In this document: piece by piece, positions 4,201-41,897 of the stretch
Numbering within the stretch: the stretch's first letter is position 1
Layout of the letters: each line of letters starts with the position of its first letter
Source of the DNA: a virus
Virus record (IMG/VR): IMGVR_UViG_3300032242_000483
Coordinates: 1 to 45,477 of that record
Length of the DNA stretch: 45,477 nucleotides
Direction: 5' to 3' (one strand)
Program-made: the position numbers and the translations under genes
The notes under the pieces: generated by a model
Seen by the model: only the letters and a program-made list of their open reading frames with translations
What the model was told of the DNA's origin: nothing
Databases searched by the model: none

Positions 4201-7200
4201 CTGGCCTGCGCCCGCGCCAGTAGGAATATTAAACCCACTTGCGCCACCGGGCTGGCTAGGGAGACCCGGCATTCCCTGCAAATAGGGGGTTCCAGCATAC
4301 ATTGCGGCCATGCTCTGGTTCACGCCATAGGGATCACCCGCGCCACCAAAGGCATAACCCGCACGTCCGCCATCAGCAAACGCAGTGCGGCCGCCACTGG
4401 CCATGCTAGATGCACCCTTGCCAGTTGCTGTTGAGGGTGAACTCGCGCCCTTGCCGGTTGCTGTCGGGGCGGATGAGCCGGTCAAAGCACTAGTTCCAGA
4501 AGCCGCCGATGCACCCTTACCGGTTGCAGTCGGAGCAGCCTGCTGCTGGTTCTGCTGGAACTGAGAAACCTGAGCGTTCTGGGCCGGAGCTGCTTGCTGG
4601 TTATTGGCGGCGGCATACTGGTCAAGGACACTCTGCGGAACGGACGTGGACTGATCAGTGGGCGTAGCGCCCTTACCAGTAGACTGCTGCATCTGCTGCT
4701 GGTTCTGCTGGAACTGGGAAGCTTGCGCGTTCTGGGCAGGCGTCATCTGTTGCTGCGAAGGGTTCGCATACTGGTTCATGATGTTCTGCGGAACGGACAC
4801 GCCCTGCTGCTGCGGATACCCTTGCTGCTGGTACTGCGGATAACCCTGCTGCATACCCTGCTGCGGATAGCCCTGTTGCTGGTATTGTGGATAACCCTGC
4901 TGCAGGCCAAATTGGGGCATGCCGTACTGCGACTGCATCGCGCCATACTGCATAGCGCCTGCATAATTGGGAGCGCCGCCGTACTGCGGAGATGACCCAA
5001 AGTTTGGCATGCCGTAGTTGCTAGGCTGACCGTAGCCGCCCATCATGCCGTACCCGCCGCCAAGGCCGCCCTGCATAGCAGACATATTGCCGTAACCGGG
5101 ATAACCCTGCTGCATGCCGTAGCCCTGCTGCATACCATAGCCCTGCTGCTGGCCGGGACGCTGCCCATAGGTCATGCCAGCGGGTGTAAAGTCGCCAGCC
5201 GAAAATGCGCCAAACTGGTTCTGTACAGGAGCCGGGTTAGCGGCAAACTTCGACGGATCGTAAGTAAGCGGCGCACCTTTGAGCGCGCTAGGGTCGCCCG
5301 ACTTCAATTTAGCTTCCGTAGATTGCTGCATGTTGTATTTGATTTGATCAAGGCTCATTCCGGCCTTGAGCATATCATTGTAATATTTTGCGCCCGAAGG
5401 ATCGGGGGTACGTCCAAGAACGCTCTGATAAAGATCCGCTACTTGGGGATCTAGGCCCTGAATAGCAGTTACATCAGCATTAAGAGGATTGGCAGCCTGT
5501 GCCACAGTTTGCGAGCCGGAGCTGCCGCCAGTGCCGGTTGTGGGCTGCTGGCCATTCTTCAAGAATGCTTGCAACCCAGCATCATTGTCCTGCACTCGCT
5601 GCCCTGTGTTTCCATTCATCCAAAAGTAATTGCCTTCACCATCGGTAGATTGGAAATAGTTAGTGCCCGGAGTACCGCCTACATCAAAACCGCCGCGCTC
5701 GTAAGCACCGGGATTGTAAACTGCGCCACCCTGACTGTCAGGAATAAGGCCGCCAGCCGCAAAATGGCCGCGCTCTGCCGCATGGCGCGTCGCCTGCTCG
5801 TAGTTGACGCCCTTCAAGCCACCAAGTCCGGGCATGGGCTTAACCGCGCCGGGGTACTTCTTCTCAACGTCTTGCGCCATAAGGCCGATCTGTGTGCGAT
5901 CATCGCCTTCTTTATACTTGAATTTGTAAATCGGCTGTCCGTCAAACGTCTTGCCGATGGGCGCAATATCTTTCTTCATGCGCTCATCCGATCCTGTCTG
6001 TTGGGCTGTAGTGGTAGAACCGGACAAAGCGCCAGTGCCTTCAGCAATGTTCGCCAAGAACTGCGCAATCTGGAACGGATAGCCCTGCTGCTGCAAGAAC
6101 TGGTTGTAAAGAGCAGTTTTCTTGGCTTGGTTAGTCTGTTGCTGCTGTTGGCCAGCGGCCATCTGAGCTTGGGCAGCCGCAATCTGTGCAGCTTGGTTCT
6201 GCATGCCAAGATTGGCAACATTCATGCCACCAGCCTGTGTAATACCAGCGGTCTGGGCGGCATTACCAAAAATGTTCTGGCCAATGCCAGCAGCGGCCTG
6301 CGAACCCTGAAGGCCCTGCGTGAACTGCTGATTGCCAAGACCCTGAATAGCCTGACCCTGACCAATATTTTGTGCATACAAATTCTGGCCAACCTGACCC
6401 AATTGCGCACCAGCGCCAAGGTTCTGTTGGAAGCCCGTTTGGCCAAGCTGGTTAATCTGAGCGCCAGTGCCAAGAGCCTGACCATACTGCTGCTGACCAA
6501 GAGCCGCGAGGCCAGTGCCAACGCCAAGCTGCTGGCCATACTGCTGTTGGCCAAGAGCCGCAGCCTGCTGGGCTGCTTGCTGCTGGGCTGCACGGTTGGC
6601 CTGTGCCGCTCCAAGACCAACACCCTGCTGCTGTTGAGCTGCGGCAAGAGCCTGCTGATAGTTTGCCTGATTAAGACCTCCGACAGTCTGCCCCATTGCA
6701 AGGGCCTGCTGCTGGGCAAGGTTAGCCTGCGCAATACCCGCACGGTCGCCACCAAAAGCGCCAGCCTGAATGGCATTGCCTTCCATTTGCCCACGCTGCT
6801 GGGCCTGCTGTTGCTGCAAGAGAGCAACGGTTGGGTTGACTACATTCTGCTGGTACTGCGGGCTCAGATAGGACTGAAGATCCAACCCCTGCGGAGTGAT
6901 GTTCTGCGTCCCCGCCTGCATATAGTTTTGGGCTTGCTGGTTCAGGGGCTGCGCAGCCTGAAGCGCGCCCGTATAGTATGGCTGAGCCTGATTGGCGTAC
7001 TGCTGACCAGTAGCGATAGCCTGCTGCGTCAGATTGGCTGCGTTGCCAAGATATTGCTGTCCCTGCCCAAGTCCCTGCTGCGTAAGCCCAGCTTCCTGCT
7101 GCATGTACGGCGCAGCAGAATTCATCGCGTTACCAAGATACTGGCCAGCCTGCTGGTTATACGCAGTGCCCTGCTGCTGGGCCTGACTAATGCCCTGCAA

Positions 7201-40017: not shown

Positions 40018-40093
40018 GTCGGGTCTCCATATAAAGAGAATAAGCGACCACGAAAAAAAATGCAAGAAAGTGAAAATAATTGGGAAAATGCTA

Positions 40094-40123
40094 TTGACCC
40101 TGCAATGGTTGCGGATGTACAAA
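40094..40123 (+). promoter_or_regulatory. Early promoter P1 (candidate)
   Basis: TTGACC (40094-40099) and TACAAA (40118-40123) are 18 bases apart, 38 bases before the first plus-strand gene. The candidate operator GCAATGGTTGC (40102-40112) lies between the hexamers, which would suit a repressor blocking RNA polymerase. No data prove activity. Confidence 0.5.
40102..40112 (+). promoter_or_regulatory. Operator candidate O1
   Basis: GCAATGGTTGC is a dyad with GCAA and TTGC half-sites around three bases. It is the exact reverse complement of the 11-mer at 40479-40489 in promoter P2, and flanks add CATCC on the same side. Placed between the -35 and -10 elements of P1. The HTH protein at 41205-41447 is a possible ligand. 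Confidence 0.5.
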
Positions 40124-40161
40124 GGGGTCGTCAACAACGCAGTGACTAACGGAGCAAGCAA

Positions 40162-40449
40162 ATGTCCAACCTCTCAAGCCTCGCCGACAACTACGCCAGC
40201 CTCGACGCCCAGATCAAGGAGCTTACCAAGAAGCGCGACGCCATCAAGGCGCTGATCCTTGAGACTGGCGAGAACGTCATCCACGGCGCAAACGCCATCG
40301 TGAAGGTCTCCGAGAGCTTTCCGATCACCTTCAGCAAGGATCTCGCCGAAACTCTCCTGAGCGCCGAGGACTTCCGCCGCTGCCATGCCACGGCAATTAA
40401 GCCTACGATACGCTTGAGCGTAACGGCGACAGCTAAGGCTTTCGCATAA
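40162..40449 (+). CDS. Early coiled-coil phage protein, unknown function
   Basis: This is a 95-aa protein. An N-terminal charged coiled coil (ADNYASLDAQIKELTKKRDA, then IKALILETGENVIHGANAIV) leads to VKVSESFPITFSKDLAETLL and a C-terminal strand pair ending VTATAKAF. The arrangement (a short coil, then ...GANAIVKVSE..., then LSAEDFRRCHATAIKP) resembles a common family of small phage proteins of unknown role found beside replication genes. The leader AACGGAGCAAGCAA before ATG is shared with the next gene. It starts from P1. No DNA-binding motif is evident. Confidence 0.7.
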   Translation: MSNLSSLADNYASLDAQIKELTKKRDAIKALILETGENVIHGANAIVKVSESFPITFSKDLAETLLSAEDFRRCHATAIKPTIRLSVTATAKAFA

Positions 40450-40468
40450 AAATAATTGCAGGGTGCGT

Positions 40469-40498
40469 TTGACATCCTGCAACCATTGCTTTTATGTA
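40469..40498 (+). promoter_or_regulatory. Early promoter P2 (candidate)
   Basis: TTGACA (40469-40474) is a perfect -35 hexamer. At 18 bases lies TATGTA (40493-40498), a weaker -10. The exact operator-like 11-mer lies between. It would drive 40533-40811 and following genes. The P1 and P2 regions share AAAATAATTG upstream, TTGAC, CCTGCAA and TGTAC, so they are likely duplicated. Confidence 0.5.
40479..40489 (+). promoter_or_regulatory. Operator candidate O2
   Basis: GCAACCATTGC is the exact reverse complement of the O1 11-mer, so the site is inverted relative to O1. It also lies between the promoter hexamers. The shared CATCC beside it adds to the match. See O1. Confidence 0.5.
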
Positions 40499-40532
40499 CA
40501 TACATCGACGCACTAACCAACGGAGCAAACAA

Positions 40533-40811
40533 ATGACCTTCAACTTCTTCACCCTCGGCGAAACCACCCCCTGCCTCACCTTCGTGGCTTCCGGCACCTA
40601 CCTTTGGGATGAAATGTGCGAGGCTATCGCCAACCATGTGCTGGGTTCTGACCTCTATTCCGAAGCGCCTGCCCGCGACATCGTTGACCTCGTGGAAATG
40701 CAGACCACCGACGAGTCCGAGTATGTTGAGGCCATTTACATCAGCGGCAAGCTTGTTGGTTCTCTGGCCAATCCATTTTGGCTGGACGCCAGCGAGTACT
40801 TCAAAATCTGA
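40533..40811 (+). CDS. Early protein, unknown function
   Basis: This is a 92-aa protein: MTFNFFTLGETTPCLTFVAS, then GTYLWDEMCEAIANHVLGSD, VDLVEMQTTDESEYVEAIYI and SGKLVGSLANPFWLDASEYF. It is acidic and probably a small alpha/beta fold. The frame is open back to 40494, but ATG 40533 has the conserved leader AACGGAGCAAACAA. It follows P2 and is separated from the 59-aa gene by a gap with a GC-rich hairpin. No motif identifies it. Confidence 0.68.
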   Translation: MTFNFFTLGETTPCLTFVASGTYLWDEMCEAIANHVLGSDLYSEAPARDIVDLVEMQTTDESEYVEAIYISGKLVGSLANPFWLDASEYFKI

Positions 40812-40818
40812 CTTAACC

Positions 40819-40842
40819 GGGGGGTTCCTAAAAGTTCCCCCC
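40819..40842 (+). promoter_or_regulatory. G/C hairpin between early genes
   Basis: GGGGGG (40819-40824) and CCCCCC (40837-40842) can form a 6-bp stem with a 12-nt loop, directly after the 92-aa gene. No T-run follows, so it is not a clear terminator; mRNA protection or attenuation is possible. Confidence 0.35.
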
Positions 40843-40864
40843 ATAACTTAACGGAACGCACAAA

Positions 40865-41044
40865 ATGACCACTACTTATAAAATCATCGTAAGCTTGAAC
40901 GCTTATTCCCCCCATAAAAGCTGGGATTGGTGTGCCGTCACCGACGATTACGACGGGCAAGAAACTGATCCTATTGGCTATGGCCCTACCGCAGCAGATG
41001 CTGTCGCCATCTTGATGGAACAACTTGAGGACCGCGAACAATGA
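40865..41044 (+). CDS. Small early protein (59 aa), unknown function
   Basis: The frame from ATG 40865 to TGA 41044 encodes MTTTYKIIVSLNAYSPHKSW, then DWCAVTDDYDGQETDPIGYG and PTAADAVAILMEQLEDREQ. The alternation of strand and helix (YKIIVSL ... DAVAILMEQL) suggests a compact alpha/beta fold. The leader CTTAACGGAACGCACAAA resembles that of the first two genes. The stop overlaps the next start (ATGA), so the two are coupled. No family is recognised. Confidence 0.65.
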   Translation: MTTTYKIIVSLNAYSPHKSWDWCAVTDDYDGQETDPIGYGPTAADAVAILMEQLEDREQ

Positions 41045-41208
41045 GTGGCCTTACCCTCCCCGAACCAACAGATGAACTTTGCAGCTTCCACAACCCGGAG
41101 TTGTGGTCGTTATTTTGCCTGTACCGCCATCGGCCTTATGAACCTAGCTATGTCTGGACTGAAGCGGCCGTTGTTGACGCGCTCAAGTATTTGGAACCAA
41201 AATCATGA
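41041..41208 (+). CDS. Small early protein (55 aa), unknown function
   Basis: The frame from ATG 41041 to TGA 41208 encodes MSGLTLPEPTDELCSFHNPE, then LWSLFCLYRHRPYEPSYVWT and EAAVVDALKYLEPKS. It is linked to both neighbours by 4-base ATGA overlaps, which argues that it is a real gene. It is Trp/Tyr-rich in the middle; no motif is recognised. Confidence 0.65.
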   Translation: MSGLTLPEPTDELCSFHNPELWSLFCLYRHRPYEPSYVWTEAAVVDALKYLEPKS

Positions 41209-41447
41209 CACCCCTTAAAATATTCATGTTGAAGCATGGTTTGACCATCCCTGATCTGTGTCTCGTGACAGGCGCTAGTCACAGGATGGTGGGATACTGG
41301 AGGTCGGGCCACTGGCCTCCGCCCCGGTGGTTGCAGATCTTCATGGCGGCAATGGACGATGAGTTGATAACGCCAGCTTGGCTATTAACTCATTTAAGGA
41401 GCATGGAGCTTCATGATGAACACCGAGTTGATGAAGGAAGAGGTTGA
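41205..41447 (+). CDS. Helix-turn-helix (Cro/CI-like) regulator
   Basis: This is an 80-aa protein. Residues 4-40 read LKIFMLKHGLTIPDLCLVTG, then ASHRMVGYWRSGHWPPP, a helix-turn-helix of the XRE/Cro type: the first helix LTIPDLCLVTG, a turn, and the recognition helix ASHRMVGYWRSG. The C-terminal part has PPRWLQIFMAAMDDELITPA and AWLLTHLR. Its length fits small phage Cro-like proteins. It may act on the O1/O2 sites that lie in the promoters of this island; this is a hypothesis. It overlaps the next gene by 35 bases and is coupled to the previous by ATGA. Confidence 0.75.
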   Translation: MTPLKIFMLKHGLTIPDLCLVTGASHRMVGYWRSGHWPPPRWLQIFMAAMDDELITPAWLLTHLRSMELHDEHRVDEGRG

Positions 41448-41838
41448 AGCCATTTTCAATACGGCGGCGGAAAAAGCTTGTGAAGTCATCGACAAGTTTA
41501 CCGCCGCAGAAGAGTACGTTGAAGGGTTGGCATCCTTCCCCATTGAGTACAACTATGGCGAATACCCCGATGACGGCGAGGCGGGTGAGCCCATTGACGA
41601 CCCTATGGTGCTGCGCGTCATCGACCCTGAGCATGACTATGGCGAGCCTTCTGCCAAGTACGAGATCAACCTGCGTGATGTCGTAAGGAACTTGATTGAC
41701 GGTTTCATCAATGTTGAAACCGATGTCATCGACGGTGAAGAATTTCCTCCCATCATCGTAAAGATCCGCGACGGGTTCCTTGAGCTTGCCGCCATGCTTA
41801 CCGATGCCCTCGGTGAGAATGATAAGGTCGAGGGATGA
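41413..41838 (+). CDS. Acidic early protein, unknown function
   Basis: This is a 141-aa protein: MMNTELMKEEVEAIFNTAAE, then KACEVIDKFTAAEEYVEGLA, FPIEYNYGEYPDDGEAGEPI and VLRVIDPEHDYGEPSAKYEI, followed by NLRDVVRNLIDGFINVETDV. It is strongly acidic. The start MMN at 41413 has GGAG nearby. The gene is the last of the plus-strand island and is followed by an intrinsic terminator. No family is recognised. Confidence 0.65.
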   Translation: MMNTELMKEEVEAIFNTAAEKACEVIDKFTAAEEYVEGLASFPIEYNYGEYPDDGEAGEPIDDPMVLRVIDPEHDYGEPSAKYEINLRDVVRNLIDGFINVETDVIDGEEFPPIIVKIRDGFLELAAMLTDALGENDKVEG

Positions 41839-41866: not shown

Positions 41867-41897
41867 AAGGCCCGGTGGCTACCTCCGGGCCTTTTTT
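41867..41897 (+). terminator. Intrinsic terminator of the early island
   Basis: AAGGCCCGG (41867-41875) pairs with CCGGGCCTT (41885-41893), a 9-bp stem with a 9-nt loop, and T's continue to 41897. It ends plus-strand transcription 29 bases after the last gene and stands between two converging transcription units. Confidence 0.85.

Follow-up and report, generated by a model that had tools for sequence, protein, structure and literature searches.

The DNA analysed here, referred to as the window, is a 45,477-bp IMG/VR virus record of a bacterial virus. It holds a plus-strand island that begins with a promoter, P1 (40094-40123), followed by a gene for a 95-aa protein (40162-40449). A second promoter, P2 (40469-40498), comes next and is followed by genes for proteins of 92 aa (40533-40811), 59 aa (40865-41044) and 55 aa (41041-41208), for an 80-aa HTH protein (41205-41447), and for a 141-aa protein (41413-41838) whose start overlaps the end of the HTH gene. 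An intrinsic-terminator-like hairpin with a T-run (41867-41897, inverted repeat I23) ends the island on the same strand. Besides the HTH gene, the 95-aa gene is the best conserved of the island; searches of Pfam, PHROGs, NCBIfam and PDB gave no confident match for its product, and no significant match to its structure was found. None of the island genes confidently matched a known anti-CRISPR family in the same four collections.

Directly after the 95-aa gene lies a GC-rich hairpin (40456-40482, plus strand) that carries the -35 element of P2 in its loop. It has 9 pairs (-16.8 kcal/mol) with one compensatory change, and its stem is kept in seven phages (the window, L084 and L087 to L091). As a second operator this hairpin was rejected; its half-sites point outward and their spacing differs, so it is more likely an element of the transcript, where it may limit read-through from P1. 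Another GC-rich hairpin, GGGGGG..CCCCCC, occupies 40819-40843 between island genes and has no T-run. Relatives such as L087 and L089 likewise have GC-rich hairpins without a T-run 5' of the 95-aa gene (GGGGGCTTCGGCCCCC). Hairpins of this kind between island genes are perhaps transcript stabilisers.

Both promoters are on the plus strand and have an 18-bp spacer. P1 consists of TTGACC (40094-40099) and TACAAA (40118-40123), with a putative operator, O1 (GCAATGGTTGC, 40102-40112), that forms the dyad GCAA-TGG-TTGC inside the spacer. P2 consists of TTGACA (40469-40474) and TATGTA (40493-40498), and its spacer holds the putative operator O2 (GCAACCATTGC, 40479-40489), with the dyad GCAA-CCA-TTGC. 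The -10 elements are weak matches in both cases, and the two dyads are without the outer flanking pairs that most relatives carry. The first-pass annotation had described the two 11-mers as exact reverse complements, each placed between a TTGAC-type -35 and a -10-like hexamer, and this proved correct; a search of all 45,477 bp found no other exact copy of either. Since the arms are GCAA and TTGC in both dyads, the opposite orientation rests only on the central TGG and CCA. Opposite central bases in two operators of one phage were also seen exactly in L028 and approximately, between P1 and P2, in L087, L090 and L091.

The further likeness claimed for the two promoters holds for the most part. 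AAAATAATTG does lie 5' of each (40073-40082 and 40449-40458). Sharing of CATCC, by contrast, applies in an inverted sense only, with GGATG after the first dyad and CATCC before the second, and not on the same strand, where the string common to both promoters is CCTGCAA. The P1 leader (40132-40167, including the ribosome-binding site) and the P2 leader (40503-40538) are the two plus-strand copies of repeat D2 and are 81% identical across 36 bp; the duplication of the promoter module is therefore real. A bare 11-mer proves little, because further perfect 11-12-nt inverted pairs (I10, I17 and I18) are present in the 2.9-kb region. It is the placement of the dyads, together with the duplicated leader and the conservation in relatives, that marks them as more than chance.

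The suspected site recurs in relatives as a promoter/dyad class in which both arms change together. Scanning with the terminase and with the 95-aa protein yielded 94 loci. In members of the class, TTGAC is followed by a perfect dyad of 11-17 bp that takes up the spacer and then by a TA-rich -10; spacers are mostly of 16-18 bp, and one to four copies per phage cluster 5' of a small operon. Close relatives mostly have this arrangement near the 95-aa gene (CCCGCAATGGTTGCGGG, CCCGCAATCATTGCGG, CCCGCAGAAACTGCGGG and CCCGAAATTATTTCGGG). Counterparts of O1 were found in L007, L083, L084, L087, L088, L089, L091 and L095, and counterparts of O2 at P2 in L083, L084 and L087 to L091. More distant phages keep the layout but have GAAG or GAAA dyads instead: L011 has CCGAAGTGGCTTCGG three times, L039 has CGGAAGAAACTTCCG twice, and L028 has GGCGAAAAGATTTCGCC together with its exact reverse complement. 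The dyad is common to the sites within one phage and differs between phages. Extra dyad copies in the full-length contigs examined lie mainly at the operon. A coarse scan for the -35/dyad/-10 pattern gave 102 matches versus 37 on reversed controls, and a stricter one gave 199 versus 43 on a set of loci that included some fetched by the promoter pattern.

Two other arrangements were noted. L081 (at about 6198-6230), L092 and L093 have two overlapping divergent TTGAC promoters with one common dyad, ACGGAAGTTATTTCCGT, and each -35 sits in the -10 region of the other promoter. An AT-rich promoter-like family, TTGACCTATGCAAWTTTTGCATATA and close variants, occurs in other viral contigs without an HTH of the window type (L332, L345, L351, L357, L399, L406, L408, L410 and L449).

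We also looked for relatives among named phages and bacterial genomes. By tblastn, no homolog of the HTH or the 95-aa protein was found in named phage genomes, so no cultured relative supplies annotation. Terminase matches in bacterial genomes were at most 48% identical, except for one 95% fragment (L251) in a Verrucomicrobia metagenome bin, which is probably a misbinned phage contig. As to the host, the alphaproteobacterial ones among these matches offer only a hint.

The 80-aa protein is an XRE/Cro-type HTH protein. Pfam HTH_3 was matched by 14 of the 19 members of its family (best value 2.4e-6), the window protein alone giving no HTH_3 match; in the PDB, the family profile matched the 434 repressor best (E = 1e-4), and the predicted model of the protein has five helices at a pLDDT of 85. 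Most contigs with HTH homologs have them 3' of the promoters on the same strand. When the collection was scanned with the promoter pattern alone, some contigs being sources of the pattern itself, an HTH lay downstream on the same strand at 31 sites and upstream or on the opposite strand at none. In that scan, 13 of the 33 contigs with extended dyads had the HTH, compared with 1 of the 84 lacking such dyads (Fisher p = 1e-7); it was present in all nine contigs with at least two such promoters and at least 3 kb of downstream sequence. Further records in it were L143, L155/L207, L189, L196/L230, L211, L221 and L239, some of them near-identical to one another or to earlier ones. L452 and L062 have the HTH with no recognised dyad found upstream. 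The HTH family alignment was dropped as a direct query for the collection because too little of it is conserved. That the class recurs in relatives with an HTH homolog encoded 3' of it, in the same direction, supports the proposal that a single repressor, for which the protein at 41205-41447 is the candidate, governs a duplicated promoter-operator module.

That candidacy gains further from covariation between the protein and the dyad. The comparison covered 27 repressor/dyad pairs, for which the dyads were compiled manually from several scans. Of all HTH columns, the one most strongly associated with dyad type was residue 28, in the recognition helix (z = 5.3). It kept this rank when identity in the remainder of the protein, helix 3 excluded, was corrected for (partial r = 0.53, 0 of 2000 shuffles), although the HTH is too short for a tree and the correction for relatedness is thus approximate. 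Met28 occurs with the GCAA dyad (6/6), Gln28 and Ala28 with GAAG (8/8 and 3/3) and Thr28 mostly with GAAA (6/8), counts that include close relatives and amount to about 17 effective systems. Every system has Arg or Lys at residue 27, alongside a nearly invariant G in the half-site, and the association of residue 31 with dyad type is also high. Shared ancestry adds to this signal, as plain shuffles take no account of relatedness and as high scores also fall on residues 37 and 21, which are not among the HTH contact positions. In the window protein the specificity residues of helix 3 would be R27, M28 and Y31; by an alignment made by eye with the recognition helix of the 434 repressor, residues 27, 28 and 31 presumably correspond to its Q29, S30 and Q33. 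Out of sample, L433 was found by its GCAA promoter alone and has a remote HTH (E = 6e-8) whose ORF starts 258 bp downstream of the promoter and reads RRMLLYY, with the same Arg-Met..Tyr. The other 22 of the 23 extended dyads in the GCAA-pattern scan came without such an HTH, as expected of a short pattern in a large collection.

We consider it very probable that the island is a self-limiting early operon in which the HTH protein binds the spacer dyads and represses both of its own promoters. Two promoters of the sigma-70 type would fire early and start the plus-strand island, yielding the small proteins and the 80-aa HTH. An HTH dimer would then occupy GCAA-N3-TTGC in the spacer of either promoter and block RNA polymerase, closing the operon after an initial burst. 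The order of the island from P1 to the terminator fits this proposal. Sequence comparison shows that the promoter/dyad class exists, that it clusters at the operon, that it is linked to the HTH gene and that recognition-helix residues covary with the dyad. That the protein binds as a dimer, that it represses and does not activate, and that the operon acts early are inferences. Because the landing site and the residues that read it change together in relatives, the operon most likely shuts itself off. The earlier suggestion of a self-regulated switch would stand as to self-regulation, but nothing shows a bistable switch; one repressor acting on two promoters of its own operon, both pointing the same way, would amount to simple negative feedback.

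A different role for the HTH protein at the same dyads, either in activation or as one arm of a lysis-lysogeny decision, is improbable but is the alternative that fares best. Some XRE/Cro-type proteins, the CI repressors of lambda and 434 among them, can both activate and repress, and the presence of two operators in one operon would fit such a role. However, the dyad fills the promoter spacer, and an XRE-type protein bound there normally keeps polymerase out. Activation of the MerR type was also considered and rejected, since MerR-type activators work on spacers of 19-20 bp and the dyad-bearing spacers here are mostly 16-18 bp. Neither a second repressor nor an integrase was recognised among the annotated window proteins, which cover part of the ORFs, and no close HTH/dyad pair was found at the terminase-matching loci in bacterial genomes.

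It is less probable still, and in our judgement very unlikely, that a host regulator uses the dyads as its operators and that the HTH gene is a mere neighbour. Promoter spacers can be bound by host regulators, and the case for HTH binding is itself drawn from sequence comparison, but the dyad varies among related phages in step with the recognition residues of the phage HTH, and every HTH found by the promoter-only scan lay downstream on the same strand. Finally, a chance inverted 11-mer beside a duplicated leader, with no operator function, could appeal to the other inverted pairs of the region but is scarcely credible given the placement of the dyads and their conservation over many phages with both arms changing together.

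Autorepression by the HTH protein would place the island, on the best reading, within a known kind of system, early operons that repress themselves through operators lying in their core promoters. Among the closest known systems are the acr-aca operons with their Aca autorepressors (Aca1, Aca2, Aca10 and others; PMC9410906, PMC9410881). For the Aca families tested, PMC9410906 describes autorepression together with an inverted repeat, IR1, in the core promoter. The window likewise has an inverted repeat in the core promoter of the HTH's own operon, a geometry from which autorepression is proposed, and its small HTH gene lies further down an operon of small genes. Unlike them, the window class has several promoters per operon, and the HTH gene is not the last, being followed by the gene at 41413-41838. 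Among the named Aca families with solved structures, the best match to the HTH profile was Aca1, at a non-significant E of 0.012 and behind the 434 repressor. The architecture would appear to work like an acr-aca or Cro-type autorepressed operon, and the Aca label is not justified yet.

The lambdoid Cro/CI systems, including that of 434, have the same HTH class and a similar dyad size, with specificity attributed to helix 3. They differ in that the window HTH is one small protein without a CI-type C-terminal domain, that its sites are in the spacers of promoters that point the same way, and that no opposing promoter or second repressor was seen. Some family members also gave weak matches to VC1465/XafT-type and MqsA/HigA-type HTH proteins (NCBIfam; HigA2 by Foldseek), but for the latter the Foldseek E-value was above 0.1 and no toxin partner was recognised. 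Literature searches, confined to one library of papers, turned up no earlier account of this promoter/HTH class, which does not prove that none exists.

The class offers a natural series of repressors and operators in which two or three residues of the recognition helix track operator bases, so that a specificity code becomes testable in a small protein. More tentatively, and with rather more doubt than confidence, these phages may share a new and widespread Aca-like HTH family, present in uncultivated phages, with the small genes between promoter and HTH including new anti-defence proteins; if so, the promoter/dyad signature would serve as bait for more such genes. The signature points to early islands of small uncharacterised genes built like anti-CRISPR operons, and such islands can be searched for in other metagenomic phages.
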